Both the position numbers and the translations under genes were made by a program. From contig JASFYJ010000001.1 of NCBI GenBank assembly GCA_030055525.1, positions 214,616-278,615 of the forward strand: a DNA stretch of 64,000 nucleotides, in the 5' to 3' direction. The notes below the pieces were generated by a model. That model searched no databases. It was given only the letters and a program-made list of their open reading frames with translations, and was not told where the DNA came from. Positions 10,845-56,862 of the stretch are shown here, piece after piece; position 1 is the stretch's first letter; every line of letters begins with the position of its first letter. Source of the stretch: Archaeoglobales archaeon (GTDB lineage: Archaea; Halobacteriota; Archaeoglobi; Archaeoglobales; Archaeoglobaceae).

Positions 10845-10905
10845 TAGTAGTGATGTGAATACCAAACCGCAAGTTATTTATGAATCGCAAAATGAAAATC
10901 CTGAA

Positions 10906-10912
10906 GGGGGTG
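10906..10912 (+). promoter_or_regulatory. Ribosome binding site fixing the dsrC start
   Basis: GGGGGTG ends three bases before ATG 10915 and differs by one base from the archaeal consensus GGAGGTG. It argues for the 116-aa product over the longer open frame beginning at 10855. A TTATTTA element at 10873-10879 could be the TATA box. Confidence 0.6.
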
Positions 10913-10914
10913 AA

Positions 10915-11265
10915 ATGTTGCCAGAAATTGAGGTGAAGGGCAAAAAACTCAGGTTAGATGATGATGGATTTTTACAGGATTGGAAAGAATGGAACGAAGA
11001 AGTTGCAATCGCTCTCGCAAAAGATACAAGGTTCAGCGTGCAGCCGATTGAGCTAACGGAAGAGCATTGGAAAATAGTAAGATATCTAAGGGAATACTAT
11101 CTGAAGTACGGTGTAGCACCACCTGTAAGGATGCTTGTGAAATTCTGCAAAAAAGAGATAAATCCCGAATGTAACCTTCAATATATCTACAGACTATTTC
11201 CCCAAGGACCAGCAAAAGATGCTTGCAGAATAGCTGGCTTACCTAAGCCGACTGGTTGTGTTTGA
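10915..11265 (+). CDS. dsrC: Sulfur carrier DsrC
   Basis: Small (116 aa) partner of dissimilatory sulfite reductase DsrAB; it carries the sulfur as a trisulfide on two C-terminal cysteines and is reduced at the membrane by DsrMK-type complexes. The functional arm is intact: KDACRIAGLPKPTGCV, with C104 and C115 eleven residues apart and Cys as penultimate residue. N-terminal LDDDGFLQDWKEWNEEVA and VRYLREYYLKYGVAP are signature stretches. It stands alone, divergent from argB, with no dsrAB or dsrMK nearby. Strong marker of sulfite/sulfate respiration in this organism. Confidence 0.95.
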   Translation: MLPEIEVKGKKLRLDDDGFLQDWKEWNEEVAIALAKDTRFSVQPIELTEEHWKIVRYLREYYLKYGVAPPVRMLVKFCKKEINPECNLQYIYRLFPQGPAKDACRIAGLPKPTGCV

Positions 11266-11588: not shown

Positions 11589-11599
11589 ACCCTATACTA

Positions 11600-12589
11600 T
11601 TATTTCTTCTTTAGATTTTTTAATAAAATTGAGTAGTTGAAAACCAACAGTCCGAAGACCAAATTCATGTGATACGTTATAATTCTCCAAATAGCAACAG
11701 TTATACCCAGCAGTCCGCTGTGTATGAAAGCGGAATAAAGGTAAGCCATGCTTGTTTCTGCTATCCCGCTACTTCCAGGTGTTAAGGGGAGGAGAGAAAC
11801 GATCGTAATTATAAGTTGGGCTGTATAAGAGTAGAGGAAATATGGATCACTACTAAAAGCAAGAAGCAGGATAGATGGAATTGAAAACTCGATGCTCCAG
11901 ATTACAGCTGTCAAAAAAATAAGAAAAGAAAGATCTTTTTTTCTTCTCGTGATCCTAGGTACAGCGCTTCTGAATCTACACATGTTTTCTTGGAACTTAA
12001 AGCTCCAGTATTCTGCTCTTTTACTAACCCTTCCCAAAAAATTTTCAATAAATTTGGCTGCCTTGCTTATACTGTTTTCATCCTTGAGAATTAGATACAA
12101 AATACCCAAAAAAACCAGTATTGCAACCACAAAAACCAGTGTTATCTGCATTCCAAGCTTTAAACTGAAGCCAGTAAAGATCGCAAAAACCGGTAAAGCA
12201 AAAGAAAAGAATATCGCATCTAGCATCCTTTCCGCTAGAACAACAAAGGCAGCTTCACCAGTGTTAACACCGAAATCGTTCAACATCTTAGCTCTAACAG
12301 GTTCACCTCCAGCAGAAGATGGCGTTATAGCCGCTGCAAACATACCGGAAATTGTAATTCTCAGCGAATCCTTAAAACTTACAAAGTATCCAAGATTTTT
12401 TACAATAAATTTTATTCTTAAGGCCCAGAAAATCCAGAAGAAGAACTGTGCTATCACAGCTAATATTACGTACAATGGGTTGGCATTTTTTATAGCACTC
12501 CAAGTTATCTCGCTCTTCGTGGTTTCGAAGATAATTAGCATGCATACTACACTTATTATTACTCCCACTATGGCAGCTTTGTAATTCAT
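11600..12589 (-). CDS. Flippase-like integral membrane protein (UPF0104 family)
   Basis: 329 residues with about eight hydrophobic segments, beginning YKAAIVGVIISVVCMLIIF. The family signature region ITISGMFAAAITPSSAGGEPVRAKML and LLPLTPGSSGIAETSM mark the lysylphosphatidylglycerol synthetase membrane-domain/UPF0104 superfamily, thought to handle lipid-linked substrates across membranes. In archaea members are proposed in lipid or glycan flipping; the substrate is unknown. Starts 1 base after the XRE-CBS stop, so it is probably the last gene of that operon. Confidence 0.8.
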   Translation of the reverse strand: MNYKAAIVGVIISVVCMLIIFETTKSEITWSAIKNANPLYVILAVIAQFFFWIFWALRIKFIVKNLGYFVSFKDSLRITISGMFAAAITPSSAGGEPVRAKMLNDFGVNTGEAAFVVLAERMLDAIFFSFALPVFAIFTGFSLKLGMQITLVFVVAILVFLGILYLILKDENSISKAAKFIENFLGRVSKRAEYWSFKFQENMCRFRSAVPRITRRKKDLSFLIFLTAVIWSIEFSIPSILLLAFSSDPYFLYSYTAQLIITIVSLLPLTPGSSGIAETSMAYLYSAFIHSGLLGITVAIWRIITYHMNLVFGLLVFNYSILLKNLKKK

Positions 12590-12590
12590 A

Positions 12591-13145
12591 CTATCTCTTC
12601 TCTCCTTCGGTGAACTTCCTCATAACATCGTGCTTTGTTACAATGCCGATGATCTCTCCATTTCTGGCAACAAGTACAGCAGGAAATTCGAGCAGTAATT
12701 TCATTATTGTAGATATTCCTGATTTCTCATCTACTACTGGAAAGGGTGTCTCCATCACGTTTCTGATCTTTGCCTCAGTGTCCCCTTCCTCGAAAATGAA
12801 CTTCATTAATCTATTCTCTGTTACGCTCCCCACAAGTTTTCCATTCTCCAAGACCGGAAGTTGTGAAATTCCGTGCTCAAGCATGAGATTTACAGCGTTC
12901 TTTATGCTTTCTTCAGGTGAAACAGATATAACAGGGGATTTCATTATGCTTGTAACTTTCATAGATCCTTCGATGTCTTCTAGGACCTTTAGTATTCTTT
13001 TTACTAGAGATAACTTCGGATCGAATTTTCCCGATTCGAGTTTTGCTATTAGCGGTTGACTTACACCTACGAGTTCTGCAAGTTTTTTTTGACTTATTCC
13101 AAGCTTTTTCCTCTTCTTTTTTATTTCCTCCACCTCTGGGAACAT
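12591..13145 (-). CDS. XRE-type HTH plus CBS-pair transcriptional regulator
   Basis: 184 residues. An N-terminal lambda-repressor/XRE helix-turn-helix (RKKLGISQKKLAELVGVSQPLIAKLESG, about 13-40) is followed by two CBS motifs (about 65-115 and 125-178; SIMKSPVISVSPEE and NVMETPFPVVDEKS). CBS pairs usually bind adenine nucleotides, so DNA binding is probably energy- or ligand-responsive. The promoter contains repeated AACGTT palindromes next to its TATA box, a good autoregulation candidate. The flippase-like gene follows immediately. Confidence 0.88.
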   Translation of the reverse strand: MFPEVEEIKKKRKKLGISQKKLAELVGVSQPLIAKLESGKFDPKLSLVKRILKVLEDIEGSMKVTSIMKSPVISVSPEESIKNAVNLMLEHGISQLPVLENGKLVGSVTENRLMKFIFEEGDTEAKIRNVMETPFPVVDEKSGISTIMKLLLEFPAVLVARNGEIIGIVTKHDVMRKFTEGEKR

Positions 13146-13151
13146 CCTAAA

Positions 13152-13179
13152 GAACGTTTTTTTTGAACGTTATAAATTT
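13152..13179 (-). promoter_or_regulatory. XRE-CBS promoter with repeated AACGTT operator
   Basis: Minus-strand TATA box (TTATAAATTT, 13170-13179) lies about 29 bases before the ATG and overlaps the TFS stop codon. Between the box and the start are two GAACGTT copies (13152-13158 and 13165-13171), each containing the palindrome AACGTT, 13 bases apart. Placement over the transcription start suits a repressor site. Confidence 0.5.
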
Positions 13180-13489
13180 AGCTGTATTCTCTCCAAGTTT
13201 TTCCACACTTCGTACAGCGATAAAAACGAACCTCAGGCTCATCTGCAGCTCTTAACTGTCTAATCCACCAATATGCCTCGTTATTTCCACATGCAGGGCA
13301 TACTGCTTTAGTAGTTGGCAATGTTTGTACATTAATGTCCTCTATTACTGGAACGTCTTCGTTCTTTTTCTTTGATTTAATTACTAAGGTCTCCTTACTG
13401 TCGCTTTCTTTCTCGTAACCACACTTTCTGCAAATGGCTTTTCCGCCAACGTAGAACATTATACTTTTACATTTTGGACAGAACTCCAC
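13178..13489 (-). CDS. Transcription factor S (TFS)
   Basis: Archaeal RNA polymerase cleavage factor, related to TFIIS/RPB9, that rescues backtracked polymerase. The N-terminal zinc ribbon (FCPKCKS, CRKCGY) and C-terminal zinc ribbon (CPACGNNEAYWW, YRCTKCGKTW) are complete, and the acidic loop QLRAADEPEVRFYRC with the catalytic Asp-Glu pair is intact. 103 aa is standard. It overlaps the Nudix gene by 23 bases and precedes the XRE-CBS gene. Confidence 0.94.
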   Translation of the reverse strand: MEFCPKCKSIMFYVGGKAICRKCGYEKESDSKETLVIKSKKKNEDVPVIEDINVQTLPTTKAVCPACGNNEAYWWIRQLRAADEPEVRFYRCTKCGKTWREYS

Positions 13490-13895
13490 GCAGGATCACC
13501 TCTGCATCTTTTAACATTTTTTCATGATCGAACGCCAACTTTGGAAGAGAATCAAGGTTGAAGAGGGCCACCTCCTTTGCATCACTCCCGGCCTTGAGTT
13601 CTCCTCCTCTTGGAAGAACTACAAAGCAAATGGATACAAAGTGTCCTCTTGGATCTCTTTTTGGATCTGAATAAACCCCTACAAGTTTGTAAATTTCTCC
13701 CTTCAATCCAGTTTCCTCTTCAACCTCTCTAAGCACCGCATCTTCTACCCTTTCTCCATACTCCACGATTCCTCCAGGTAGGGCGTAGTAACCTTTGTAC
13801 GGATCATTCAATCTTCTAATCAATACTATCTTTCCCTCGTAAGGAATTATCGCATCCACAGTTAAAGTTATGCACCTCATAGTTTCAAAGCTCAT
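13467..13895 (-). CDS. Nudix hydrolase
   Basis: 142-residue single-domain Nudix pyrophosphatase with the box GGIVEYGERVEDAVLREVEEETG (split here across residues of about 41-63). It resembles the ADP-ribose/nucleotide-housecleaning branch (ALPGGIVEYGE, then VGVYSDPKRDPRGH), but the substrate cannot be fixed. Start codon overlaps the PHP stop as TAATG, and its end overlaps TFS, so it is embedded in a tight operon. Confidence 0.88.
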   Translation of the reverse strand: MSFETMRCITLTVDAIIPYEGKIVLIRRLNDPYKGYYALPGGIVEYGERVEDAVLREVEEETGLKGEIYKLVGVYSDPKRDPRGHFVSICFVVLPRGGELKAGSDAKEVALFNLDSLPKLAFDHEKMLKDAEVILRGVLSKM

Positions 13896-17088: not shown

Positions 17089-19335
17089 ATGGAAGAGTAC
17101 CTAGGAAGGTTGGCGAAGTTCGTAGCAGAGAGGCCAGGATTGGTAGTATCTGTCGTAGCCTTAATACTAATTTTTTCAGCTATCTCCGCTCAAAACGTTT
17201 CAATGAGCACAGGTACTGGTTCGATGTTTCCAAAGGATAACCCAATATACCTGCAATACAAGATGTATGAGAGAAACTTTGGTGTTGGTGCACAAAGTTT
17301 ATTCATCTTAATAAAAGGGGATAGAGTAATAAGCAAAGAAGTTTACGATTACATGCTTCAACTACAGAACAGAATAGAGCAGATCGAAGGTGTCGGTGCT
17401 ACAACCTCGCCAGCATCAATTATTGTTGCATTTAATGGTTTTTTACCAGATAGTGATGTTGAGTTAGAAAAGCTAACTGAAACATATGCATCAAATTTAG
17501 CACCCAAACAAACTTTGGCACTCATAATGATTCCACTTAAAACTTCAGATGTTGACATGCAAAAATCGATAGCAAAGCAGATAGAAAAAATCATTGAGTC
17601 GACCTCGTTACCACCAGGTGTAGCCCTTGAACTTACGGGCTCCGCAGCTCTAAGCGTTCAGCTAGAAAGAGAGATAATGAAAAGCCTTGGAGTTACAATG
17701 ACTGTATCGATTCTATCCATGGTCCTGATACTCTACATAACATTCAGCGGAGCTGTCAGAAGAAAGGTTACAGCATTTGCACCGCTTATAATTTCAGTGA
17801 TGTCTGTACAAATACTCTATGGCTTGATGCCTCTAATGGGTATTCCCCTATCTGAGCACACAAATGGAGCCTTACCGATGCTTATAGGCCTTGCAATAGA
17901 GTACGGAGCACAACTTCAGAATAGATACGAGGAAGAAAGAAGAAAAGGCAACAAACCAAACGAGGCTGCAGTTATAGCGACTACAAGAACCGGATTGGCA
18001 ATAATTATGGCCCTACTAACTACGATAGTTGGATTCATGTCCATGTTGGCTCCGGGCATTCCAGCTATGTCAGATTTTGGTATAATCGCATCTTTTGGTC
18101 TGATACTAGCTTACATACTCACTATAACTTTCCTACCTGCAGCACTAAAGTTGCTGGACGAAAAAAATCTTTTAGAAAATAACAACTCTGCAAAAGCGAA
18201 AAATAAGAAAGTTAAAGAGTTAGGTTATTTGGAAAAGTCTCTGGAAAGTATTGCAACTTTTACAGCAAAAAGACCGCTTGGAATCCTTGTTGGTACAACT
18301 GTAATTGTCATTCTTGGCCTTTACGCTTCACAGTTTGTTGAACTTGAAACAAACTACAACAAGTACATACCTCAAGATCTACCATCGATAGTGAGATTCA
18401 AGGAACTTGAAAGAACCGTCGGTGGGCAGGCGGTTTATACGCTCGTGTTGAATATAGATGAGTTAAATTCCGAAACTCTTGAGAAGATAAAAGAACTTTC
18501 AGATTATATAGTCTCTAGAGAAGAGCTCGTTTATGACTACAACTCCCTGACTAAGCTCGTAGATGATGTTGCAAAAAATTACGACTTAAAAGTTTCAGAT
18601 CGATTGATTAACAAGGTTATTGAAGCTGCTGGAGAGAAGCAGCTTGCGATGTACATATCGGGAAATCAACTTGCAGTTCATTTCTACTCCGATGCCGATA
18701 CGCATTCAGAATACATAAAGCTTTATGATTCCTTGAAAAAAGATGTACGCTTTTACGGATTCTACGATTACTACATAACTGGCTCACCAGTGCTTTTTGG
18801 CGAGATGGGTAGAATAATGATAGATGGACAGACAAAGATGACCTACGTAGCATACTTCCTGATTTTAGTTCTCCTTCTCTGCATTTACAGATCGATAAGA
18901 AAGGCTATCGTTCCGCTGATCGCAATAACTTCAGTTATAGGAGTAATGAACCTTATAATGTTCGTTTTTGGAGTTAAGCAGACCATGATGTCTATAGCTT
19001 TAAACAGCATAACTTTAGGTCTTGGAATCGACTTCTCGATCCACATTTTAGAGAGATATTTTGAAGAGAGAAGAAATCTCGACCCTATAGCTTCAGTAAG
19101 AAGAACTATCGAAAGAACTGGAAAAGCAATAACCACTTCAGCTTTAACAATGGCAGGAGGTTTTGGGTCACTAATGTTCTCATCTTTTCCGATATTGAGG
19201 GACTTTGGATTCATAGCTCTTGTTTCGATCTTATTCAGCCTAATTGCAGCACTTACAGTAGTTCCAGCATTCCTCATAGTTACTGAGAGAGTTTCCAATA
19301 AAAATATATTTAGGATCAACAACTCAAAATCATGA
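17089..19335 (+). CDS. RND-superfamily (MMPL/HAE3-type) exporter
   Basis: 748 residues with the duplicated RND layout: one N-terminal helix, a large extracytoplasmic loop, five clustered helices (MTVSILSMVLILYITFSG onward), then the same again (helix near 400, second loop, helices from 595). GLAIEYGAQLQNRYEEE and GLGIDFSIHILERYFEE are the equivalent helix-4 motifs carrying acidic residues of the proton relay. Archaeal members of this group are linked to hydrophobic compound export, but the substrate is unknown. Cotranscribed with the surface protein and probably controlled by the divergent TrmB gene. Confidence 0.88.
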   Translation: MEEYLGRLAKFVAERPGLVVSVVALILIFSAISAQNVSMSTGTGSMFPKDNPIYLQYKMYERNFGVGAQSLFILIKGDRVISKEVYDYMLQLQNRIEQIEGVGATTSPASIIVAFNGFLPDSDVELEKLTETYASNLAPKQTLALIMIPLKTSDVDMQKSIAKQIEKIIESTSLPPGVALELTGSAALSVQLEREIMKSLGVTMTVSILSMVLILYITFSGAVRRKVTAFAPLIISVMSVQILYGLMPLMGIPLSEHTNGALPMLIGLAIEYGAQLQNRYEEERRKGNKPNEAAVIATTRTGLAIIMALLTTIVGFMSMLAPGIPAMSDFGIIASFGLILAYILTITFLPAALKLLDEKNLLENNNSAKAKNKKVKELGYLEKSLESIATFTAKRPLGILVGTTVIVILGLYASQFVELETNYNKYIPQDLPSIVRFKELERTVGGQAVYTLVLNIDELNSETLEKIKELSDYIVSREELVYDYNSLTKLVDDVAKNYDLKVSDRLINKVIEAAGEKQLAMYISGNQLAVHFYSDADTHSEYIKLYDSLKKDVRFYGFYDYYITGSPVLFGEMGRIMIDGQTKMTYVAYFLILVLLLCIYRSIRKAIVPLIAITSVIGVMNLIMFVFGVKQTMMSIALNSITLGLGIDFSIHILERYFEERRNLDPIASVRRTIERTGKAITTSALTMAGGFGSLMFSSFPILRDFGFIALVSILFSLIAALTVVPAFLIVTERVSNKNIFRINNSKS
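19303..19313 (+). promoter_or_regulatory. TATA box of F420-type oxidoreductase gene
   Basis: AAATATATTTA inside the 3' end of the exporter gene, centred about 24 bases before ATG 19332. The oxidoreductase is thus probably transcribed independently despite overlapping the exporter stop. Confidence 0.45.
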
Positions 19336-20363
19336 AGTTCGGAATGCTAATATCTCCACCTCTGCAAAGTATTGAGAGAGCCTTAAAAATTGCTGAAATG
19401 AGCGAAGAGGCGGGTTTTGACTCTCTGGTGGTTCCGGATCATACACTGATGGTTCCCCCAGGATATACGCCAAGCGCGATGGTACTACTATCTCTTTTAG
19501 CCTCAAAAACACAGAAGGTATCAATAGGCACCGGAGTTACAGATGTCGTGAGGTACCATCCATCTATACTAGCCCAATTTTTCGCAACACTTGAAAATAT
19601 CGCGCCTAGCAGAATATTTCTCGGCTTGGGTGCAGGAGAAGCGATGAACATAAAACCCTTTGGGATAAATTGGGAAAAACCTCTTTCCACGTTAAGAGAG
19701 GGAATAGAAGTTATAAAAAAGCTTTGGAGTGGCGAAAGATTCAGTTATGATGGAAAAGTGTTTAGGATGAGGGATGCCTTTCTTCAGGTGAAACCTACAA
19801 GTAAGATGCCGATATATCTTGGCGCCAACGGAAAGAAAAGTCGAGAACTTTGTGGAGAGCTTTGCGATGGCTGGATGCCTATAGCTGAGACTCCAAAGAC
19901 TTACAAAGAAAATCTAGAGGATGTAAAGCGTGGAGCTGAAAGAGCTGGAAGATCTATAGATGAGATAGATACCGCACTCCAGATATACACTGCAATCGAT
20001 GAAGACAGAGATAAAGCTATCCAGAGAGCACGTCAATTTGCTGGCGTTATATTTTCAGCTATTGAAAAAGCAGAACAGGCAGGTTACAATGTGGATATAC
20101 CGAAAGATATTTCAAAAAAGTTCTATTTTGATCAGTTACTTGTTAGGGATGATATGCTGATTCAATTTCTTCATATGTCTTCTTACGCGACAGATGAAAT
20201 GATAGAAGACTTCTTCATAGCCGGAAACCCCCAAGATTGTGAACAGAAAATTGAAGAGTTCAGAAAAGTTGGAGTGAAGCATCTGATGATTATAAATGTT
20301 GGGCCAGATCCAAAGTTTGTTTTGAAAGTTTTCAAAGAGAAGGTAATACCAAGTTTTCGATGA
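19332..20363 (+). CDS. LLM-class F420-dependent oxidoreductase (Mer-like paralogue)
   Basis: 343-residue luciferase-fold protein of the F420-binding branch. It has FGMLISPPLQSIERALKIAE, VVPDHTL, SIGTGVTDVVRYHPS, LGLGAGEAMNIKPFGI and IYLGANGKKSRELCGELCDGW. The family includes methylenetetrahydromethanopterin reductase (Mer), F420-dependent alcohol dehydrogenase and glucose-6-phosphate dehydrogenase. True Mer is shorter and differs in the GPGDK/IGPG region, so Mer is not claimed. It overlaps the exporter stop by 4 bases but has its own TATA box. Substrate unknown. Confidence 0.82.
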   Translation: MKFGMLISPPLQSIERALKIAEMSEEAGFDSLVVPDHTLMVPPGYTPSAMVLLSLLASKTQKVSIGTGVTDVVRYHPSILAQFFATLENIAPSRIFLGLGAGEAMNIKPFGINWEKPLSTLREGIEVIKKLWSGERFSYDGKVFRMRDAFLQVKPTSKMPIYLGANGKKSRELCGELCDGWMPIAETPKTYKENLEDVKRGAERAGRSIDEIDTALQIYTAIDEDRDKAIQRARQFAGVIFSAIEKAEQAGYNVDIPKDISKKFYFDQLLVRDDMLIQFLHMSSYATDEMIEDFFIAGNPQDCEQKIEEFRKVGVKHLMIINVGPDPKFVLKVFKEKVIPSFR

Positions 20364-32582: not shown

Positions 32583-33974
32583 ATGGGAATAAAAAGATTT
32601 ACGTCTATGGCGTATAAAAGCGCGGATGACATTGTGTTTGGAAAGGCTTTGTACCCCGTCTACGAGCGCTTTGGCGTGCCAATTGGCGCTGGTTTTGTGG
32701 TGCCAGAGATAAAAGTTGCCCCAAGGCCTGGGAGCGAAAAAGATCTTGAAACTTTTGTCAAACACCACAAGGAATTCACCGAAGAGATACTGAAGATATG
32801 TGCAACACTTGGATTCCCGTATATAATGATTGAGCAGGAGCACGTGTTCCAGCAAACTTACAATCCGAAGTATGCCTATGAAACTGCACATGCACAGGTA
32901 GAGCTTGCTGAGAAATACTACGAAGAGTATGGAATTGGTGTAACAATTAGGCATACAATCGGAGACATTAGAAAGGCAGAAGCTGAGGGTGGATTAAGAG
33001 AGAGCGATTTGACAAAGAGGATGTTTGAATCGTTTGAACAGGCAGCATCAGCTGGTGTTGGTGATGTAGCGATTGAAACGTTAGGTGGTAAAGAAATTGT
33101 AGACTATGCAGTTGCAAGAGGCGACATAAAGGGTATACTATTTGGTATCGGTGTTTGTGGTAGTGAAGATATGGCTTGGGTATGGCCACAGATAGTAAAG
33201 ATCGCAACCAAATACGGCACAATTCCAGCTGGTGATACGAACTGCAGCGGTGCAAACACCGTGATGTTCTTAGCTGGAGGTTTGATGGATAGAGAAGTTG
33301 CCCACACAATTGCAGCGCTTGCAAGAGCTATTGCTGGTGCAAGAAGCCTCGTAGCTGTAGAAGCCGGAGCCAAAGGGCCACTAAAGGATTGCGGCTACGA
33401 GAACCCGATAATTAAAGCGATAACTGGAGTCCCGATATGTATTGAATGCACAAGCATATGTGCGTGCGCGCATATAGATGTTATGGGTAACCTGAACAGA
33501 GCGGTTGGAGATGTCTATTCTAACGAATCGGTAGAATATCATCAGGAGTTCGGCGGTAGCACTGCTGAAGTCTGGACCGCTGTAACAGGCAACGCTGCAG
33601 CTCTCTCAAATACTGCTCTACAGGCTAAACAGGAGAAGGTTTTGAGAGATCTGCTAACCTACTCTGATATGTACAGAGATCCGCAGGGATTAATATTGGC
33701 CTACCCGAACGCATACAGGATCGGCAAAGTAATCACGCAGTATGGAAAAGACCCATACCTGAGAGCAAAGTACGCTGCAATCGAGGCTGGAAACATAATA
33801 CTCGAAGCAGCTGAGGCGAAGAAGATAAAACTCTCCCGCTGGGAGCTTGATACACTCAACAAAGCCATGGAGACACTCAAGGCATTACCAGATGATGCCG
33901 ATAAGTTCTTAGAAGACTGCTTGAAAGAATACAAGAACGTGCCATACTTCAATCCGAAGAATTACGGATGGTAA
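32583..33974 (+). CDS. mtaB: Methanol:corrinoid methyltransferase MtaB
   Basis: Zinc enzyme that activates methanol and transfers its methyl group to the Co(I) corrinoid of MtaC. 463 aa, near-identical in length to Methanosarcina MtaB. Counting from the start, Glu165 (AIETLGG), Cys221 (DTNCSGAN) and Cys270 (LKDCGYENP) fall exactly where the known zinc ligands Glu164, Cys220 and Cys269 of M. barkeri MtaB lie. Conserved stretches IMIEQEHVFQQTYNP and IRHTIGDIRKAE also fit. First gene of the mtaB-mtaA-mtaC run; strong promoter upstream. A non-methanol substrate is unlikely given full ligand conservation. Confidence 0.95.
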   Translation: MGIKRFTSMAYKSADDIVFGKALYPVYERFGVPIGAGFVVPEIKVAPRPGSEKDLETFVKHHKEFTEEILKICATLGFPYIMIEQEHVFQQTYNPKYAYETAHAQVELAEKYYEEYGIGVTIRHTIGDIRKAEAEGGLRESDLTKRMFESFEQAASAGVGDVAIETLGGKEIVDYAVARGDIKGILFGIGVCGSEDMAWVWPQIVKIATKYGTIPAGDTNCSGANTVMFLAGGLMDREVAHTIAALARAIAGARSLVAVEAGAKGPLKDCGYENPIIKAITGVPICIECTSICACAHIDVMGNLNRAVGDVYSNESVEYHQEFGGSTAEVWTAVTGNAAALSNTALQAKQEKVLRDLLTYSDMYRDPQGLILAYPNAYRIGKVITQYGKDPYLRAKYAAIEAGNIILEAAEAKKIKLSRWELDTLNKAMETLKALPDDADKFLEDCLKEYKNVPYFNPKNYGW

Positions 33975-34007
33975 CTTAATTTTAAAATTTTTTATATGAG
34001 GTGAAGA

Positions 34008-35114
34008 ATGATGAGCCCGAAGAGAAGGGTAATAACAGCATTGACGGGCGGAACCCCAGATAGGGTTCCTGCATCTTGCGTTACCCAGCTTGGCATAGTT
34101 GATGCTATGGCTGCGGTAAATGCCTACTTCCCCAACGCCCACAAAGATGCCGAAAAAATGGCAAAGCTCGGTTCAGCTTTGTGGGAGCTTGCAAAGCTTG
34201 AGGCTGCAAGAGTCCCATTCTGCTTAACTGTAATAGCCGAAGCTCTTGGATGCAAGATAGACTTTGCAACCCAAGAAAGGACACCTTCCGTTAAAGAACA
34301 TCTCGCTAAACCAGAAAAAGTTGAGATCCCAGACAACTTCTTGGAAAGAGGAAGGATACCAGTCGTAAGAGATGCTATAAAGATCCTAAGAAGCACTGTT
34401 GGAGATACGCTGCCGATCATTGTAGGAATGGAGGGACCATTCACATTGGCAGGCCATCTAGCTGGGACTGAGCAGCTCGTTTCATGGTGCTTAACGAATC
34501 CCGAGAAGGTGAACGCCATAATGGAAGTAACTGCAGAAGCTGTGACGATGTACGCAAAGTACATGCTAAAAGCCGGGGCAGATATTGTGACGATCGCTGA
34601 TCCAACAGCTTCACCAAATCTGATAGATCCATCGATGTTCAAGACACTTGTAAAACCAAAACTTGCCGAAGTTGCTGGGAATGTTGGAGGAATAATGGTT
34701 CTGCACATCTGCGGAGATGTTACAAAGATACTCGCAGACATGGCTGAGTGCGGCTTTAACGGCTTAAGCATTGAAGAAGCTGTTGATGTCGCCAAGGCGA
34801 GGAGAATTGTAGGCGATGATGTGGCTTTAGTCGGAAACGTATCAGCTAGTAAGACTTTGCCGTTTGGAACAGCAGATGCTGTAAAGGCTGAAGCGCTCAA
34901 AGCTTTACAGAGCGGTGTAGATGTACTAGCTCCAGGATGCGGTTTGCCACCGATTACTCCAATTCAAAATGTAGTAGCAATGGTGCAAGCTGCAGAGGTA
35001 TGGAATCAGCCGAGGAAGAAGATTGCTGTGGCCGGTGCTCTGACACCGGAAATGGCTAAAGAGATAGGGTATGGTATTGGTGAAGCTTTGGCTAAGATGA
35101 TTTATGAAAGGTAA
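34008..35114 (+). CDS. mtaA: Methylcobamide methyltransferase MtaA/MtbA-type
   Basis: Uroporphyrinogen decarboxylase-fold zinc enzyme that takes the methyl group from methylated corrinoid protein and gives it to a thiol, coenzyme M in methanogens. 368 aa. Zinc ligands are visible as His233 and Cys235 (VLHICGD) and Cys311 (APGCGLPPITP), matching the H-x-C...C pattern of MtaA/MtbA and excluding HemE. RRVITALTGGTPDRVP is the family N-terminus. GAGGTG lies upstream of the tandem ATG ATG. The preference for coenzyme M over another acceptor cannot be read from sequence. In Methanosarcina mtaA is usually unlinked to mtaCB; here it sits between mtaB and mtaC. Confidence 0.9.
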   Translation: MMSPKRRVITALTGGTPDRVPASCVTQLGIVDAMAAVNAYFPNAHKDAEKMAKLGSALWELAKLEAARVPFCLTVIAEALGCKIDFATQERTPSVKEHLAKPEKVEIPDNFLERGRIPVVRDAIKILRSTVGDTLPIIVGMEGPFTLAGHLAGTEQLVSWCLTNPEKVNAIMEVTAEAVTMYAKYMLKAGADIVTIADPTASPNLIDPSMFKTLVKPKLAEVAGNVGGIMVLHICGDVTKILADMAECGFNGLSIEEAVDVAKARRIVGDDVALVGNVSASKTLPFGTADAVKAEALKALQSGVDVLAPGCGLPPITPIQNVVAMVQAAEVWNQPRKKIAVAGALTPEMAKEIGYGIGEALAKMIYER

Positions 35115-35136
35115 TTCGGTTTTGGAGGTGAGATAG

Positions 35137-35988
35137 ATGGATGGTCGTGAAATTGGTTGGGCGATGGTTGAGGGAATTTTGGCTGGAATGAGGCCCTCCG
35201 TAAAGGAGGAAGTGATAGACTTCGACAAAATATTTGTTAGATACAACGTGATTGAAGAGGAGAAGAAGCTAGGCTTGAAGCCGGAAGAGCTTGTTAAGGA
35301 TATAATGCCGAAAGATGAGCCCTGGAAGACGATTGCGTATGCAGTATTCAAGGGCGATGCCGCTACGGCTCTCGAAGAGACAAAGAAGGCTCTTGAAAAG
35401 TATCCACCAAAGGAAATCGTAGATAAGGGCTTAGCCCCAGGCATGCAGGCTGTATCAAAGCTTTACGATGATGGGATATACTACTTGCCACAGGTGATGC
35501 TTTCAGCCGATGCCATGAGCGCTGCAGTACAATACATTGAGCAGAAGGTTGGAGCCGGCAAAATAGAGAAGAAAGGCAAAGTAGTAATGCATGTTGCAGA
35601 AGGAGACATTCACGATCTCGGCAAGAACCTTGCAAAAGTGTTCTTAGTTGCAGATGGTTGGGAAGTGATCGATCTTGGCAGAGATGTACCGGTTGATGAG
35701 GTAGTTAAAGCAGTTGAAAAATACAAGCCGGTGATGGTAACTGGAACTGCTTTGATGACAACTACGATGACCGCTTTCCCGAAGATTGCAAAGAAACTGC
35801 TAGATAAGGGAATAAAGATCCCATTCATATGCGGTGGTGGAGCCGTTAACGAAGACTTCGTTAACACGTTCCCGCTTGGAGTTATAGCAAAGAAGGCGCA
35901 TCAGGCACCAAAGTTTGCCGAAGCTGCAAAGAAAGGCATCTCTTGGGAAGAACTTCGTGCCAAATGGCACGAAATCGCTCCAGCCTAA
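35137..35988 (+). CDS. mtaC: Methanol-specific corrinoid protein MtaC
   Basis: Carries the cobalamin-type cofactor that shuttles the methyl group between MtaB and MtaA. An N-terminal helical cap domain (about 25-130) precedes the B12-binding Rossmann domain. The lower axial ligand is His159 in GDIHDLGKN (D-x-H-x-x-G). TGTALMTTTM and FICGGGAVNEDFV are typical of MtaC rather than methylamine corrinoid proteins. 283 aa, about 25 longer than the M. barkeri protein, with the extra residues at the N-terminus. GGAGGTG lies before the ATG. T-rich sequence just after the stop may partly terminate transcription. Confidence 0.94.
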   Translation: MDGREIGWAMVEGILAGMRPSVKEEVIDFDKIFVRYNVIEEEKKLGLKPEELVKDIMPKDEPWKTIAYAVFKGDAATALEETKKALEKYPPKEIVDKGLAPGMQAVSKLYDDGIYYLPQVMLSADAMSAAVQYIEQKVGAGKIEKKGKVVMHVAEGDIHDLGKNLAKVFLVADGWEVIDLGRDVPVDEVVKAVEKYKPVMVTGTALMTTTMTAFPKIAKKLLDKGIKIPFICGGGAVNEDFVNTFPLGVIAKKAHQAPKFAEAAKKGISWEELRAKWHEIAPA

Positions 35989-36027
35989 ATTTAATTTTTT
36001 TATTTTTCTATTTAGTCAGGTGAGGAT

Positions 36028-36588
36028 ATGTCTTACGTGATATATGCAGCCGTAGGATTGTTGGGACTCGCCGTTGGCTTATCAATCTTGATTTTCACAA
36101 GTTTTGGTATTTTAAAACCAAAGGAAGGTTCCAACCTTGATCGTGGTCAAGCACCTTGGTATCTTTGGGTCTCTGGTATTGCGATGCTAATTGCAAGCGC
36201 ATACTTTGCAATGCATAACGATTTTCTTGATGCTGCAACCTTTGGAGGTTATGGTGTATTTTGGACAGCTATAGGAACGCTGTTTTACTGGGGAGGAGAT
36301 AGTAGAACCCTTGGACCTATTGCCATAGGTTATGCCGTCTGGTCTCTAGCTTTGATGTTCGCATATGCAACGGTAAGTGCAACTTTGTTCATCGTGCTAC
36401 TCTTGCTTGTTCTGATATTCTTGTCACTGATTCCAGCCGCTTGGGATAAAGTGAATGCAAAGGTCCTTGGGACGCTTGAGCTTCTCTGCCTAATATTCAC
36501 ACTTATAGCTGTAGTTGGGCTTATATTTGCAGCAGTTCCAGAGCTTGAAGGATATGCGGGAATATTTATATGGCCCCCGTTAATTTAA
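36028..36588 (+). CDS. Small multi-pass membrane protein in mta cluster
   Basis: 186 residues with about six hydrophobic helices: near 3-27, 44-63, 70-90, 95-113, 115-138 and 150-175. The FGGYGVFWTAIGTLFYWGG segment loosely recalls GPR1/FUN34/YaaH acetate transporters, but the NPAPLGL motif of that family is missing, so no family is assigned. AGGTGAGG lies before the ATG. Placed 39 bases after mtaC and 26 before the CobW gene, it is a candidate channel or transporter for methanol or another small solute. That role is inference. Confidence 0.7.
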   Translation: MSYVIYAAVGLLGLAVGLSILIFTSFGILKPKEGSNLDRGQAPWYLWVSGIAMLIASAYFAMHNDFLDAATFGGYGVFWTAIGTLFYWGGDSRTLGPIAIGYAVWSLALMFAYATVSATLFIVLLLLVLIFLSLIPAAWDKVNAKVLGTLELLCLIFTLIAVVGLIFAAVPELEGYAGIFIWPPLI

Positions 36589-36614
36589 AAACTTATTATT
36601 TTTTAGGTGTTTGA

Positions 36615-37646
36615 ATGTCTAAAGCCCTAATTCTAAGCGGATTTTTGGGGAGTGGGAAAACAAGTCTTATTTTAAGACTCGGAAAATATTTTGCTGAAGA
36701 TTTGAAAAAGAAAGTTGTTATAATCGTAAATGAGATAGGTGAGATAGGCGTTGATGGTGATTTTCTCAAAAAGTCTGGAATGGATTCCTATGAGATAACT
36801 GAAGGATGTATATGCTGCACGGTTAGAAGAGATTTGGAGTCTACGCTATCTTACGTCCTCTCATCCATAGCTCCCGATTACGTTTTGATCGAACCGACTG
36901 GAATAGCTTTCCCCTCTGTTATAAAAAAGATCGCAAGAAAAAACGATCTAGATGCTTTGGTAATTGGAGTTGCAGATGCTACGAGGTTTGTAAAGCTTTA
37001 TAGCGAATCTAGAGAGTTTATAGAGAGACAGGTCAGAGAGGCGGAGATAATATCGATAAACAAAATTGACTGCATAAAATCACAAGCTGAACTGAAAGTT
37101 CTGACAGAGATCTTGAAACAATTGTCTCCGAAAGCTAAGATCGTTTTTACCTCCGCCAAAACAGGGGAAGGTATAAAAGAACTCGCAAAGCTTCTAAGTT
37201 CAACTTCAGGTTTTGAAGTGTTGGCTGAAGAATTTATTGACTCGACGGTGGAATCTAAAGCTTCTTGGTATTCGGCCAAGATATCAGTAAGGTTCAAAAA
37301 GCCTACTTCCGGAGTTGAAGTAAAGAGTTTTGGAATCGAGCTTATGGAGAGCCTAAAGAATAGAGCTGGTAATATTCAGCACTACAAGATTCTCATATCC
37401 AACAGCGGGGCATTGAAATTCGGTTTGACCAGGAAAGAGGATGCTGTAAGTGTAGACGGTAGCTTGGCAGGCTGGATAGTTAACGCAACCATTAACGTTC
37501 TACTTATAGATAAAGACTTGAGTTCTGAAAAGATAGGAAAAATATTTGAAGATGAGCTTACACAAAAATCGAAAAAGTTTGGATTTGATTACGAGATCGT
37601 TGAGCATGAAGGTGAACACCATAAGGTTGAACACAAGGAGGGCTGA
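36615..37646 (+). CDS. CobW/G3E-family GTPase with His-rich C-terminus
   Basis: 343-residue G3E P-loop GTPase related to CobW, HypB, UreG and zinc chaperones. Walker A GFLGSGKTS (8-16), the metal-binding GCICCTVR (C-x-C-C, about 63-70), EPTGIAFPS and SINKIDC are all present. The C-terminus EHEGEHHKVEHKEG is rich in His and Glu, a likely metal reservoir. Located between mtaC and ramA, it may deliver zinc to MtaA/MtaB or assist the cobalt cofactor; that is inference. Six bases separate its stop from the ramA ATG. Confidence 0.85.
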   Translation: MSKALILSGFLGSGKTSLILRLGKYFAEDLKKKVVIIVNEIGEIGVDGDFLKKSGMDSYEITEGCICCTVRRDLESTLSYVLSSIAPDYVLIEPTGIAFPSVIKKIARKNDLDALVIGVADATRFVKLYSESREFIERQVREAEIISINKIDCIKSQAELKVLTEILKQLSPKAKIVFTSAKTGEGIKELAKLLSSTSGFEVLAEEFIDSTVESKASWYSAKISVRFKKPTSGVEVKSFGIELMESLKNRAGNIQHYKILISNSGALKFGLTRKEDAVSVDGSLAGWIVNATINVLLIDKDLSSEKIGKIFEDELTQKSKKFGFDYEIVEHEGEHHKVEHKEG

Positions 37647-37651
37647 TATTG

Positions 37652-39283
37652 ATGAGAATTGGAGTTGCAGCAGATTTGGGGACAAGCGGATTTAGAGCTC
37701 AGGCAATTGATTTAGAAACTGGTGAAGTCATCTCAACTGCAATAACCCTTCGCCATCCACTTCCAGGAATAAATGTAATGGATCACCTTACTTTTGCAAT
37801 AGAATACAGTTTGGACTTTGCTCACTCTATAGTCATCGATGCCGTAGATAAGCTGCTGAAGAAATTAAGGATCGATTTGAGAAAAGTGGAAAGGATGGCA
37901 GTAAGTGGAAACCCTACACAGCTATCTATATTTCAAGGGATAGAGATCAGAGACCTCGCCTATGCTGGTGAGAGGGCTTTAGAGTTAAGGGGTGTGAAAC
38001 CTCCAAAAAGAGATGCTACGATAATAAAAACGGGAGATGTCGGTTTGAAGAATCTTTCAACGGAGGTTGATCTCTATATCCCTCCATGCATAAAACATGA
38101 ACTTGGAGCAGATGCGATAGCAATGATGGTAAAGTCAGGATTTCTCAAAGAAGAGCTAGCATTAGTAGCAGACTATGGAACAAATGCTGAAATTGCTTTA
38201 AAAGTTGGAGATGATATACTTACAGGCAGTTGTGCTGCAGGACCAGCTATAGAAGGGCAGCATATCGAAAAGGGTATGTTAGCCTCGCCAGGTGCGATTT
38301 CAGATATCTCATTCGAGATTTCCGGTTGGAGAAACTACGTACTCAGCGAGGAAATGTATGCAAAACCTGGAGATGTGGTAGATATTGCCAATGGAAAAAT
38401 TTTGGAAAAGGGTTCAATGCACAAGAAGGCTAAGGGTATTACTGGAACAGGAGTGATAGCTGGTATCGCAGTTGGTTTAAGCAAAGGATTGATCAAACCA
38501 CCAAAGATAGTTACTCATGATAGAAAACTACATTTCCAAGATGAGATCTATCTGACAGAAAAAGATGTTGAAGAAGCAGGAAAAGCGCTTGGAGCTTTTA
38601 GAGCGGGATTTCTAACCCTTGCAGAAGAGGCAGGGATAGATTTTACAGAAATAAAGACGATGTACATGGCTGGAGCTTCAGGATTCTATGTGGATCCTCT
38701 AAAGGCTAGGATAGTTGGCGAAATTCCTCCTTCATCAGAAAAAATCTATCAAGTTGGAAACACATCTCTAGCACTTGCAGCTGATTTGATCCGGAATCCA
38801 GATTATTTGGATGAGTTGCAGAGCTTTGCAAGTGAACTTAGAGCTCAGCACGTTATGTTTGCAACATCAGAGGTTTTTCAGAATGCTTACACCTTAGAAC
38901 TTGCATACTGGACGGAAGGAATGAGTCTTGATAACTACAACAAGTTCTTGCAGGCCTATGGAATTAATCAGAAAATCACAGCCCAAGCAAAGGCTCCTGA
39001 GGTTGTGAAGGTTGTTCCACGCGATATCGCTGAACTGGGTAAGTTAGGTTTAGAAGTGGTCCCAGACATAGGAACGCTTATCGAAGTCGAGGCCGAAGGC
39101 TGTAAGGAATGCAAGAAATGTGCCAGGAGTTGTCCGGAAAATGCTATTATCTCCGTGAAGGATGGAAAAATTCAGATAAGTTCAAGCTTATGCTTAGGAA
39201 CGGCTTGCAGGAGATGCGTTGCAGCATGTCCAGAGAAGGTTCTGGACTTTAACAAAGCTAGAGTTTTGGGTGTAAGGGTATGA
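37652..39283 (+). CDS. ramA: RamA-type corrinoid protein reductive activase
   Basis: ATP-dependent iron-sulfur protein that reduces inactive Co(II) corrinoid proteins back to Co(I). 543 aa. An ASKHA-like ATPase part has GVAADLGTSGFRAQAIDLETG, VADYGTNAEIALKVG and MYMAGASGFYVDP; a C-terminal diferredoxin domain has CKECKKCARSCPE and CLGTACRRCVAACPE (eight cysteines, two [4Fe-4S] clusters). Methanosarcina RamA has the same order and size. ATG 37652 is used; TTG 37649 would add one residue. AGGAGG lies 10 bases before it. A dedicated activase in the same cluster makes the Mta system self-sufficient. Confidence 0.92.
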   Translation: MRIGVAADLGTSGFRAQAIDLETGEVISTAITLRHPLPGINVMDHLTFAIEYSLDFAHSIVIDAVDKLLKKLRIDLRKVERMAVSGNPTQLSIFQGIEIRDLAYAGERALELRGVKPPKRDATIIKTGDVGLKNLSTEVDLYIPPCIKHELGADAIAMMVKSGFLKEELALVADYGTNAEIALKVGDDILTGSCAAGPAIEGQHIEKGMLASPGAISDISFEISGWRNYVLSEEMYAKPGDVVDIANGKILEKGSMHKKAKGITGTGVIAGIAVGLSKGLIKPPKIVTHDRKLHFQDEIYLTEKDVEEAGKALGAFRAGFLTLAEEAGIDFTEIKTMYMAGASGFYVDPLKARIVGEIPPSSEKIYQVGNTSLALAADLIRNPDYLDELQSFASELRAQHVMFATSEVFQNAYTLELAYWTEGMSLDNYNKFLQAYGINQKITAQAKAPEVVKVVPRDIAELGKLGLEVVPDIGTLIEVEAEGCKECKKCARSCPENAIISVKDGKIQISSSLCLGTACRRCVAACPEKVLDFNKARVLGVRV

Positions 39284-39846
39284 AAACGAAAATGGAAGAA
39301 ATAATGGAATTTTTAAAATCTCTGAAAGGCGTTGAAGACGTTAAGCTGCTTACGGAGTCTGAAAAAAGAGAGTTGATGAGGATTGAAGAGCAAGCTGAGA
39401 GATCTTCACTTATGGGCCTAATGCCAGGAATTAATCAGGGTGTGAGAGAGGCTATTTCAAGGACTTTTACAGTTGCAGCAATAACCAACGATGAATTTGA
39501 GTGGCCAATAAGGGGGACTGTTAAGTTCGTTTATAGAGGGGAAGTAATAGGAGAGGAAATAAGAGATGAAAACGAGCTCAGAAGGCTTAAAAATGAAGGT
39601 AACAGGATAATTGGGGATATCTTCGTTCTGTACTCTGACAAGATAAGAGAACTCGGAATTGTAAATTTACGAGATGCTACTCTTGTAATAGCTCCACTGG
39701 AGCTTTCTTGGATAAAAAATGTGCCCCATGCGAAAAGGGTCGTTGTCGGAAGTCCATCAACTCCATCTGATCTTTATATAAAAAAGATTATGAAAAAAGA
39801 TGTCGCCGACAGAGGTTCGGTTGTTGTAGGATTTGAAATAGATTGA
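39280..39846 (+). CDS. Unknown protein translationally coupled to ramA
   Basis: 188 residues, overlapping ramA by 4 bases (ATGA). Predicted soluble. N-terminal helical part with LLTESEKRELMRIEEQAE, then a beta-rich part (WPIRGTVKFVYRGEVIGEE), and a C-terminal VVVGSPSTPSDLYIKK...GSVVVGFEID. No cysteine, metal motif, signal or membrane segment. I do not recognise a family. Tight coupling suggests a role in corrinoid activation, perhaps as a RamA or MtaC partner. Confidence 0.72.
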   Translation: MKTKMEEIMEFLKSLKGVEDVKLLTESEKRELMRIEEQAERSSLMGLMPGINQGVREAISRTFTVAAITNDEFEWPIRGTVKFVYRGEVIGEEIRDENELRRLKNEGNRIIGDIFVLYSDKIRELGIVNLRDATLVIAPLELSWIKNVPHAKRVVVGSPSTPSDLYIKKIMKKDVADRGSVVVGFEID

Positions 39847-54148: not shown

Positions 54149-55165
54149 CTAAAAATACTCAAGAATTCTATAGTAAGTATTCCTTCTCGCAACTCTCCTG
54201 CCGACTGACTTAACAGCATTCACGATCTCCTCAAAGCTCGCTGGTCTGAAATCCTTTCCAGTAGCTCTTATTACGCTCTCCTCAAACATCGTTCCGCCAA
54301 AGTCGTTTGCTCCAAAAAACAAAGCAAGCTTTGCAACCTCAAAGCCTTGGCTTAGCCAAGAAGCCTGAATGTTCCTGAAGTTGTCAAGAACGATCCTTGA
54401 GATCGCAAGAATACGAAGATACCTCGAAGCTCCGACTTTGCCCAAATACTCAAGCTCCGTTTTGCCGGGATGAAAAGTCCATGGAATAAAAGCTGTGAAA
54501 CCATTAGTTTCGCTTTGAAGCTCCTTTATTTTAAGCAGATGCTCCAGAATGTCATCATCGCTCTCGACATGTCCAAAAACCATAGTCGCTGTAGTTGGTA
54601 TTCCAAGTTTATGGGCGCTTCGCATTACTTCAAGCCACTCCTCACTACTACACTTCTTTGGGCTGAGCTCTCTCCTGACACTGTCGACAAGAATCTCCGC
54701 TCCACCGCCTGGCAGAGAATCCAAACCCGCTTTTTTGAGCCTTTTAAGAACTTCTTCGTAGCTTAAACCTTCCAAGTTCGAAAGGAAAACGATCTCTGGT
54801 GGCGAAAGACTGTGAAGGTGGATCTGTGGAAAAGCTCGCTTAAGCTTAGAAAAAAGCTCTTCAAACCATCTAAGCCTTAAATCTGGATTTAAACCGCCTT
54901 GAAGCATTATCTGCGTTGCTCCAAGCTCCACAACTTTTTTGACTTTGCTTATGATCTCTTCATGGCTTAAAGTGAACTCCTCGTTTGCCTTCTTTGCATA
55001 GAAGGCACAGAATTTGCACTTAGAAGAGCAAACGTTTGTGTAGTTGACCGTTGCATCCGCAACAAAGGTCACGAGATCTCCGCATTTCTCAAGCGTTTGC
55101 TTATTCGCAATCCTCCCAAGTTCTGGAAGAGAAAGGCTAAATAGCTCAGAGTAGTCCATGCTCAT
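54149..55165 (-). CDS. mqnC: Cyclic dehypoxanthinyl futalosine synthase MqnC
   Basis: Radical SAM enzyme cyclising dehypoxanthinyl futalosine in the futalosine route to menaquinone. NYTNVCSSKCKFCAFY holds the C-x3-C-x2-C cluster; IMLQGGLNPDL, SLPGGGAEILVDSVRRELSP and TATMVFGHVES are typical of MqnC/MqnE. The open frame extends to 55219, but that would overlap mqnA by 74 bases; ATG 55165 (MSMDYSELF) leaves a 20-base overlap and is preferred. Last gene of mqnD-E-A-C. Confidence 0.9.
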   Translation of the reverse strand: MSMDYSELFSLSLPELGRIANKQTLEKCGDLVTFVADATVNYTNVCSSKCKFCAFYAKKANEEFTLSHEEIISKVKKVVELGATQIMLQGGLNPDLRLRWFEELFSKLKRAFPQIHLHSLSPPEIVFLSNLEGLSYEEVLKRLKKAGLDSLPGGGAEILVDSVRRELSPKKCSSEEWLEVMRSAHKLGIPTTATMVFGHVESDDDILEHLLKIKELQSETNGFTAFIPWTFHPGKTELEYLGKVGASRYLRILAISRIVLDNFRNIQASWLSQGFEVAKLALFFGANDFGGTMFEESVIRATGKDFRPASFEEIVNAVKSVGRRVARRNTYYRILEYF

Positions 55166-55868
55166 GGCAAAGTTCACCGAATAGCTCCAAAGATCTTCTT
55201 TCCTTACCGCCAAGCTCATGAATGAGAGTTTCGAAGTATTTTCTCAGGAATTCTTCAGGCAATCTGAACTTCTCGCTCGCAACGCTAACAACTTCGTCGA
55301 TGTGCTCTCTGCCCCACTCTAAAGAATCAAGTATTTCTTCGTCAATTCCATCAACTCGCGAAACAGAAACTCCGAAGACCGCGGGCAATCCGGTTAGCTC
55401 TTTCCATTCCTCGCCAAGATCCATAAGCACTCTATAGCTCATTCGAGCCTTTATAGCTTCATCGCCAATAACGAGTGCATGATCAAAATTCCTGAGCATT
55501 TCATCCACTTTTCCGTTTACAGCAACAAGTCTGTTTATCAAACCTTTTTCAGCCTTTATGATCTTCATCATGTTTGCAGAAGTCATTGAATTTTCGGTTA
55601 TCGCAATCGGCGAGTCATCAAGCCTTTTTCTCTTTGAAACCACTATAACGCTGTAAACTTCTCCATCTGAAGCAACGCAGAACTTTCCCGCATTATAGCC
55701 TTTTTTCAGAACTTCAAACGCGGGAAGAGGAGCGTAAACGATTGCTCCATTCTCAAAAAGCTCTGCAAGCCTTCTTGGTGTTCCCTCAACGATCTCGAAC
55801 TTCCCTTCCTTTTCAAGCCTATAGTATGGAAGGAAGTTATTCACAAATCCGAACTTCCCGATCCTCAT
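55146..55868 (-). CDS. mqnA: Chorismate dehydratase MqnA
   Basis: First committed step of the futalosine pathway: chorismate to 3-enolpyruvylbenzoate. 240 residues in a periplasmic-binding-protein-like fold: GKFGFVNNFLPYYRLEKE, VEGTPRRLAELF, YAPLPAFEVLKKG, SDGEVYSVIVVSKRK, ITENSMTSANMMKII and GEEWKELTGLPAVFGV. Overlaps mqnE (32 bases) and mqnC (20 bases). Its presence supports menaquinone-based respiration, as known for Archaeoglobus. Confidence 0.9.
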   Translation of the reverse strand: MRIGKFGFVNNFLPYYRLEKEGKFEIVEGTPRRLAELFENGAIVYAPLPAFEVLKKGYNAGKFCVASDGEVYSVIVVSKRKRLDDSPIAITENSMTSANMMKIIKAEKGLINRLVAVNGKVDEMLRNFDHALVIGDEAIKARMSYRVLMDLGEEWKELTGLPAVFGVSVSRVDGIDEEILDSLEWGREHIDEVVSVASEKFRLPEEFLRKYFETLIHELGGKERRSLELFGELCHEHGLL

Positions 55869-56862
55869 AAACCCTCAAAATATTAAAGAAGGCATCTCTC
55901 TCAGCTGGAATTTTGTTCGCATTTCTTATCAGCCTTATTAGATCTTCAGCGGGAAGCCCAACAGGGGTTTTAGCTCCAGCGGAGTGGGCAATTCTTTCAT
56001 ATCCAACTGTTCCGTCGAGATCGTTTGCTCCGTAGCTTAAAGCGATCTCAGCAAGCTCCAAGCCAAGCATTACCCAGTAAGCCTTTATTGCTCTGAAATT
56101 TGAAAGCACAAGCCTTGAGACCGCTATCGTTTTTAATATGTCCACTGGAGATGGTTTAAAGCTGTATTCTGTTTCTTCAGGATGGAAGGGAAGCGGAATA
56201 AAAGCCAAGAAACCACCAGTTTTTTCCTGAAGCTTTCTCAGCTTATACAGATGGATCGCTCTATGCCTTTTGCTCTCAACATGTCCAAAGAGCATTGTAG
56301 CGTTGCTCTTGATTCCATTCTCGTGGGCTATTCGCATAACCCTCAACCATTCCTCGCTATTGCATTTTCTTGGGCATATTTCTTTGCGAACGCTGTCAAC
56401 AAGGATCTCCGCACCACCGCCAGCAAGGATTTTGAGCCCAGCGGACTTCAATCTGCTTAAAAATTCTCTAACGCTCATTTTTTCCTTCTTCGCATAGTAA
56501 TGCACTTCTGCAGCTGTCAATGCTTTTATCGTTGCTGAGCACTGCGAAGAGATCCTTCTGAAGATCTCTTCAAAATACTCGATTCCAAGCTCTGGATTGT
56601 GAGAGCCAACGATGTGCAATTCTGTTGCTCCCGCCTTTACAGCCTTCAAAGCCTCGCTAACCACTTCATCAACGCTCAGCGTGAACTGTTTTTTGCGGTG
56701 GTAGGCACAAATTTTGCATTTAGTTTCGCAGACGTTGCTGTAATTTATGTGAGCGTTAATTGAGAATGTCACGATTTTTTCCGCTTTAATTAGGCATCCA
56801 AGCTCGTGCAAGTCTTTGGCAAAGAGTTCTTCGATCTCTCTAATCGACATCTCTAAGCACAT
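55837..56862 (-). CDS. mqnE: Aminofutalosine synthase MqnE
   Basis: Radical SAM enzyme joining 3-enolpyruvylbenzoate to the adenosyl moiety to form aminofutalosine. 341 residues with NYSNVCETKCKICAYH (three cluster cysteines), HIVGSHNPELGIEYFE, LAGGGAEILVDSVRKEICP and NATMLFGHVES. Distinguished from MqnC by HIVGSHNP and by CAYH after the cluster. Overlaps mqnD by 23 bases; ATG 56850 is an alternative start. Confidence 0.9.
   Translation of the reverse strand: MCLEMSIREIEELFAKDLHELGCLIKAEKIVTFSINAHINYSNVCETKCKICAYHRKKQFTLSVDEVVSEALKAVKAGATELHIVGSHNPELGIEYFEEIFRRISSQCSATIKALTAAEVHYYAKKEKMSVREFLSRLKSAGLKILAGGGAEILVDSVRKEICPRKCNSEEWLRVMRIAHENGIKSNATMLFGHVESKRHRAIHLYKLRKLQEKTGGFLAFIPLPFHPEETEYSFKPSPVDILKTIAVSRLVLSNFRAIKAYWVMLGLELAEIALSYGANDLDGTVGYERIAHSAGAKTPVGLPAEDLIRLIRNANKIPAERDAFFNILRVYEDREVRICE

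Follow-up and report, generated by a model that had tools for sequence, protein, structure and literature searches.

A probable methanol-entry module in a methanogenic member of the Archaeoglobi and the association of its accessory genes with RamA

The window, that is, the whole stretch of 64,000 nucleotides of Archaeoglobales DNA that we analysed, carries a block of eight open reading frames, all on the + strand, between 31.7 and 39.8 kb, which very probably constitutes the methanol-entry module of an Archaeoglobi methanogen. The organism is a thermophilic, methyl-using methanogen that has lost sulfate respiration, a kind already described, and the module itself is of the kind known from methanogenic Archaeoglobi. 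The new part is the association of two accessory genes, those for P188 and a DUF6951 protein, with the corrinoid activase RamA, which is apparently unreported so far. These results settle the window's genome as belonging to the methanogenic branch and sharpen a further question, namely how both lifestyles came to be found in a group known chiefly for reducing sulfate.

Composition of the methanol block

Gene calls and family searches place mtaB, mtaA, mtaC and ramA on a single strand (+) within 7 kb (32583-39283), as a first-pass annotation made from the sequence alone had described, and the families and residues reported below bear out its view that a complete methanol:coenzyme M methyl-transfer module is present in an Archaeoglobi genome. 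Besides these genes, the block holds others absent from that annotation, which encode a DUF6951 protein, a hydrophobic orphan, a CobW GTPase and P188. Table 1 compiles their coordinates together with those of the sulfur- and menaquinone-related genes of the window. A search of the genome found one mtaB. The DUF6951 gene precedes mtaB in all four mtaB-carrying genomes of the genus. The hydrophobic orphan had no tblastn match in any examined locus and, among these loci, is confined to the window's species; its assignment as an AmiS/UreI or YaaH channel was dropped to a guess, because Pfam at E<=1 returned nothing similar and the examined loci held no relative.

Table 1. Features of the methanol block and of related genes, with positions in the 64,000-nucleotide window and the family matches that identify them.
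Feature	Position	Strand	Evidence
Two-copy DUF6951-domain protein, 219 aa	31733..32392	+	Pfam DUF6951, two stretches; upstream end of block
mtaB, methanol:corrinoid methyltransferase, 463 aa	32583..33974	+	PF12176, 626 bits; NF040651, 659.7 bits, below 720 cut-off; E165, C221, C270
mtaA, methylcobamide:CoM methyltransferase, 368 aa	34008..35114	+	NF040654 (MtaA_Meth), 426 bits, cut-off 400; H233-x-C235...C311
mtaC, methanol corrinoid protein, 283 aa	35137..35988	+	NF040669 (MtaC2_Meth), 306.6 bits, below 450 cut-off; 243 bits to 2I2X chain B; H159
Hydrophobic orphan, 186 aa, apparently 6 TM (by eye)	36028..36588	+	No Pfam/NCBIfam match
CobW/COG0523 G3E GTPase, GCICC metal motif	36615..37646	+	PF02492, 138.5 bits; CxCC conserved in alignment
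RamA/RamM-type ATP-dependent corrinoid activase	37649..39283	+	TIGR04270 (Rama_corrin_act), 758.7 bits, cut-off 500; C-terminal 4Fe-4S cysteine motifs
P188, unnamed 188-aa protein	39280..39846	+	Four-base overlap with ramA end; no Pfam/NCBIfam/PDB relative
dsrC, outside methanol block	10855..11265	+	237 bits to A. fulgidus DsrC (1SAU), full length
MqnC, menaquinone (futalosine) gene	54152..55219		Above cut-off
MqnE-like, menaquinone (futalosine) gene	55840..56862

Catalytic residues and profile scores

The metal-binding residues listed by the first-pass annotation for the three methyl-transfer proteins were all recovered by alignment to solved structures and direct indexing. The three MtaB positions in Table 1 align to E164, C220 and C269 of 2I2X, which we take to be zinc-ligand residues; against the same structure, the corrinoid histidine of MtaC lies within EGDIHDLGKN, with the DxHxxG motif kept; and the zinc motif of MtaA was placed on 4AY7. 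The Pfam match of MtaB is full-length (positions 2-460 of 460), and the protein is about 50% identical to Methanosarcinaceae MtaB over its full length.

MtaA and RamA pass their family cut-offs; MtaB and MtaC miss the NCBI equivalog cut-offs (Table 1). On the NCBI MtaB profile, the Archaeoglobi clade scores 647-660 bits against the cut-off of 720 and L006 reaches 646.5, whereas the MtaBs of Methanobrevibacter (768) and of Methanosarcina type (837) pass, and automatic annotation may therefore miss the Archaeoglobi clade. Since both MtaB and MtaC fall below these thresholds, the clade is divergent and methanol is its presumed substrate. The low scores, unlike those of other methanogen MtaBs, would also fit a clade that uses another methyl compound, such as a methoxy compound, which we consider quite unlikely given that the zinc and corrinoid ligands are all kept, that the identity to Methanosarcinaceae MtaB extends over the full length, and that the genes are linked to a CoM-type MtaA scoring above its cut-off.

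Phylogeny, gene order and genomic site

In a tree of 107 MtaB rows, Thermoplasmatota, Korarchaeota and Methanomethylicia not being among them, the MtaB of the window groups with other Archaeoglobi and with UBA8915 (G073) in a clade of five rows (support 100). This clade is placed beside Methanobacteriaceae MtaB (SH-aLRT 95); a wider group adds Methanosarcinaceae and G076 (97), and a 55-row bacterial group stands apart. The tree thus rejects a grouping with non-methanogen bacterial homologues; the first-pass annotation had named a grouping with non-methanol homologues as a result that would tell against its reading, and the tree puts the protein with methanogen MtaBs instead. The nearest MtaB outside the genus, 82% identical, is that of G073, which belongs to another family of the same phylum and carries mcrA; such identity across families suggests that mtaB may have been exchanged laterally.

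The order mtaB-mtaA-mtaC differs from the mtaC-mtaB order of Methanosarcinaceae, as the first-pass annotation had observed, but two bacterial MAGs (L014, L016) share the B-A-C order, and a single block of mta genes and ramA is the usual arrangement in the Methanobrevibacter loci and in several of the bacteria examined.

Within the Archaeoglobi, 4 of the genus's 10 genomes have MtaB and the 49 genomes outside the genus have none. All four of these genomes carry mcrA, versus one (G046) of the six genomes of the genus that lack mtaB, an association with a one-sided Fisher p of about 0.024 by our own arithmetic, some of the genomes being incomplete. G046 has a stop-broken P188 gene 167 bases from ileS, and ileS is the left neighbour of the methanol block in the window; the simplest reading of this relic is therefore that G046 lost the block at that site, so that loss at the same ileS site as in the window is probable. 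In the methanogenic branch of the Archaeoglobi, methanol use is patchy, with probably at least one loss.

Different species of the genus carry the block at different places. In G051 and G053 it adjoins apparent cobalt-transport and cobamide-synthesis genes, recognised from the starts of their sequences, and in G050, whose contig starts within P188, the kind of site is the same. A synteny search with SepCysS revealed a right flank that varies among species, and it yielded no clean empty site. This variation in site, the G+C content of mtaBAC (46-47%, versus about 39% in its surroundings) and the position of the closest outside MtaB in another family are what a recent lateral gain, or a mis-assembled fragment with no settled role, might leave behind. 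We regard such an origin as very unlikely, since at least four genomes of the genus share the block, the broken P188 beside ileS in G046 supports the exact site, the frames are intact with their ligands kept, and the G+C content of EF-1alpha in the same window is likewise raised. Contamination or mis-assembly is rejected on the first two of these grounds, and the joining of a methanogen fragment to the contig, a concern raised in the first-pass annotation, is contradicted by the recurrence of the module in several independent MAGs of the genus.

The host genome is that of a methanogen

The source genome (1.56 Mb, 98.5% complete) contains mcrA in a stretch that reads mcrBDCGA, in which McrB, McrC, McrG and McrA exceed the NCBIfam cut-offs and McrD is just under (90 vs 100 bits). 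Eight consecutive open reading frames form an mtr operon in the order E-D-C-B-A-F-G-H, with mtrE, D, A and H over their cut-offs and Mmp3 a few genes upstream. The search for sulfate-reduction genes covered the dsrA and aprA profiles, and in this genome it returned only sub-cut-off fragments, the best reaching 17.8 of 393 bits for dsrA and 28.2 of 642 bits for aprA. With mcr and mtr present and dsrA and aprA absent, we interpret the organism as a methanogen rather than a sulfate reducer. A point against our explanation is that Mer is represented in the window solely by a paralogue below its cut-off (198 of 349 bits).

The DsrC that the first-pass annotation had called functional-looking is indeed full-length, with both C-terminal cysteines intact (C-x10-C) and the end CRIAGLPKPTGCV, and the menaquinone genes that it had pointed out are in place (Table 1). 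Neither contradicts the methanogen reading, because both are reported to be retained in methanogenic Archaeoglobi without dsrAB, in PMC7380581 and in PMC10945360; DsrC is here a leftover or a sulfur-relay protein. From these two marks the first-pass annotation had drawn a choice between methanol feeding sulfate reduction and a mixed methyl-dependent metabolism, of which the methyl-dependent part agrees with the mcr and mtr genes and the sulfate part fails on the dsrA and aprA results. That sulfate or sulfite respiration is fed by methyl groups from methanol, DsrC and menaquinone then belonging to a live sulfate pathway, is extremely unlikely and largely refuted. The intact DsrC, the menaquinone genes and a related organism, Ca. 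M. dualitatem, reported to have sat, aprAB and dsrABC beside MCR (PMC7380581), would favour it, but dsrA and aprA are absent from a nearly complete genome, mcr and mtr are complete, and for methanogenic Archaeoglobi menaquinone is a proposed partner of Fqo and HdrDE (PMC10945360).

Proposed pathway and described relatives

For the methanogen reading we propose a scheme whose substrate, direction, electron donor and helper roles we infer from the gene content. RamA would use ATP and a low-potential electron to reduce the corrinoid of MtaC to Co(I); the zinc enzyme MtaB would then transfer the methyl group of methanol to this corrinoid, and MtaA, also a zinc enzyme, would pass it on to coenzyme M, from which MCR would release methane. 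Part of the methyl groups may enter the Wood-Ljungdahl branch through Mtr, and the electrons for the heterodisulfide may come from H2, from methyl oxidation through menaquinone, or from both. CobW, DUF6951 and P188 are candidate helpers in metal or corrinoid loading and reactivation.

The closest described organism in gene content, rather than in species identity or in the order and accessory genes of its mta block, is Ca. Methanomixophus hydrogenotrophicum, known from oil reservoir MAGs. As given in PMC7380581, published in 2020, this member of the Archaeoglobaceae has MCR, MTR, MtaABC and a two-cysteine DsrC without dsrAB or apr, mtaABC is transcribed in Ca. Methanomixophus, and methanogenesis from methanol was proposed. 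Ca. Methanoglobus hypatiae LCB24 is likewise a methanogenic member of the Archaeoglobaceae with a single MCR, DsrC without dsrAB, menaquinone-based electron transport, ramA and mtaA (PMC10945360). It differs from the window in being a methylamine user, and it counts against our explanation that this cultured relative makes no methane from methanol, though it lacks mtaB and mtaC (PMC10945360). With the Methanosarcina mtaCB/mtaA system (2I2X, 4AY7), the window shares the same three enzymes and the same metal ligands, but in Methanosarcina mtaC stands before mtaB and mtaA is often non-adjacent, whereas in the window mtaB-mtaA-mtaC and then cobW-ramA-P188 form one run.

Accessory genes associated with RamA

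Corrinoid activation is required by methylotrophic methanogens, and its helper proteins are poorly known. P188 is a direct neighbour of RamA in several Methanosarcinaceae, in two Archaeoglobaceae without mcr (G033 and G008, the second with a genome just 54% complete) and in the Archaeoglobi block itself. In the Methanosarcinaceae, P188 and DUF6951 recur together beside RamA. Trios of RamA, P188 and DUF6951 were found in L129, L131, L143, L188, L192, L194, L199 and L201, and DUF6951-CobW-RamA in L186 and L205. Of the 393 genomes in our sample of the phylum, 71 have P188 and 66 have MtaB; the two sets largely coincide, and this co-occurrence is confounded by descent. The P188 gene lies less than 2 kb from a DUF6951 gene in 16 genomes, versus about 0.35 pairs expected from random placement under a rough model applied to related genomes. 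This proximity suggests a RamA accessory set.

None of 33 relatives of P188 has a Pfam match, and the protein has no sequence relative in the PDB. Its AF2 model is confident (pLDDT 93.4), and a fold search with it gave no significant PDB match; nor did one with the DUF6951 model, which was built from four sequences and for which one of five models was good. A search of the available literature found no paper naming DUF6951. The link between CobW and the mta genes was considered as a novelty and rejected, the clustering of CobW with mta and ramM genes having been published in 2009 (PMC2770081). There, COG0523 subfamily 13 comprises CobW-type GTPases clustered with mtaA, mtaB, mtaC and ramM in Methanosarcina, and the available text makes no mention of Archaeoglobi, DUF6951 or P188; the likeness to our gene is one of CobW type and clustering rather than of subfamily assignment.

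P188 and DUF6951 may act in metal or corrinoid loading or in reactivation. More broadly, we tentatively suggest, as a possibility somewhat short of an even chance, that P188, DUF6951 and CobW form an unnoticed helper set for archaeal RamA-dependent corrinoid methyl transfer, which would load or reactivate the corrinoid protein, would be ancestral to the methanol module of the genus, and would travel with RamA across the Archaeoglobi and Methanosarcinaceae, with P188 also in the Methanobacteriaceae. The association of P188 and DUF6951 provides a short, testable list of proteins for corrinoid activation. In Methanobrevibacter, P188 stands at the end of an mta-ramA-mtaA cluster, on the opposite strand.

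The P188 family and its neighbours

P188, an unnamed protein family, is encoded next to ramA in Methanosarcinaceae and Archaeoglobi, and a DUF6951 gene often adjoins P188 too. The fold of P188 is predicted with confidence, and no match to that predicted fold was found in the PDB. The coordinates of the features are compiled in the table.

Features of the window and of the compared loci (L) and genomes (G)
Feature	Location	Coordinates	Remarks
P188	window; also L127-L150, L188-L201	39280-39846 (window)	adjoins ramA
Orphan hydrophobic protein	window	36028-36588	flanked by mtaC and cobW
Mer-like F420-dependent oxidoreductase	window	19332-20363	198 of 349 bits, under the Mer cut-off
mtaB-A-C-ramA-P188	L176 (G073, UBA8915)	7579-13538	56-82% identity
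P188 relic with stop	L161 (G046:C188)	6449-6990	beside ileS
Corrinoid + MtaA-like fusion locus	L162	102-3617 with 3639-5888	
Corrinoid + MtaA-like fusion locus	L163	2142-5587 with 5590-7812	

Distribution of the methanol block

The block of G073, an mcrA-bearing genome that belongs to a different family and is labelled “Halobacteria archaeon”, probably reflects lateral exchange. The P188 relic at ileS in G046, which has mcrA and lacks mtaB, is likely a remnant of a lost methanol block. Since G049, a 99% complete genome of the window organism's genus (g1), has neither mcrA nor mtaB, this genus is not uniformly methanogenic. The orphan hydrophobic protein, for which no database family was found, is missing from the blocks of sister genomes. 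What look like genes for cobalt transport and cobamide biosynthesis adjoin the same block in G051 and G053 (L165, L166).

Fusion loci in genomes with no mcrA found

Two Archaeoglobaceae genomes, in neither of which mcrA was found, encode a corrinoid and MtaA-like fusion protein of about 635 residues; the fusion gene is followed by that of a divergent thermosome-family protein, with P188 and RamA convergent to them. These loci possibly represent a methyl-transfer system in non-methanogens.
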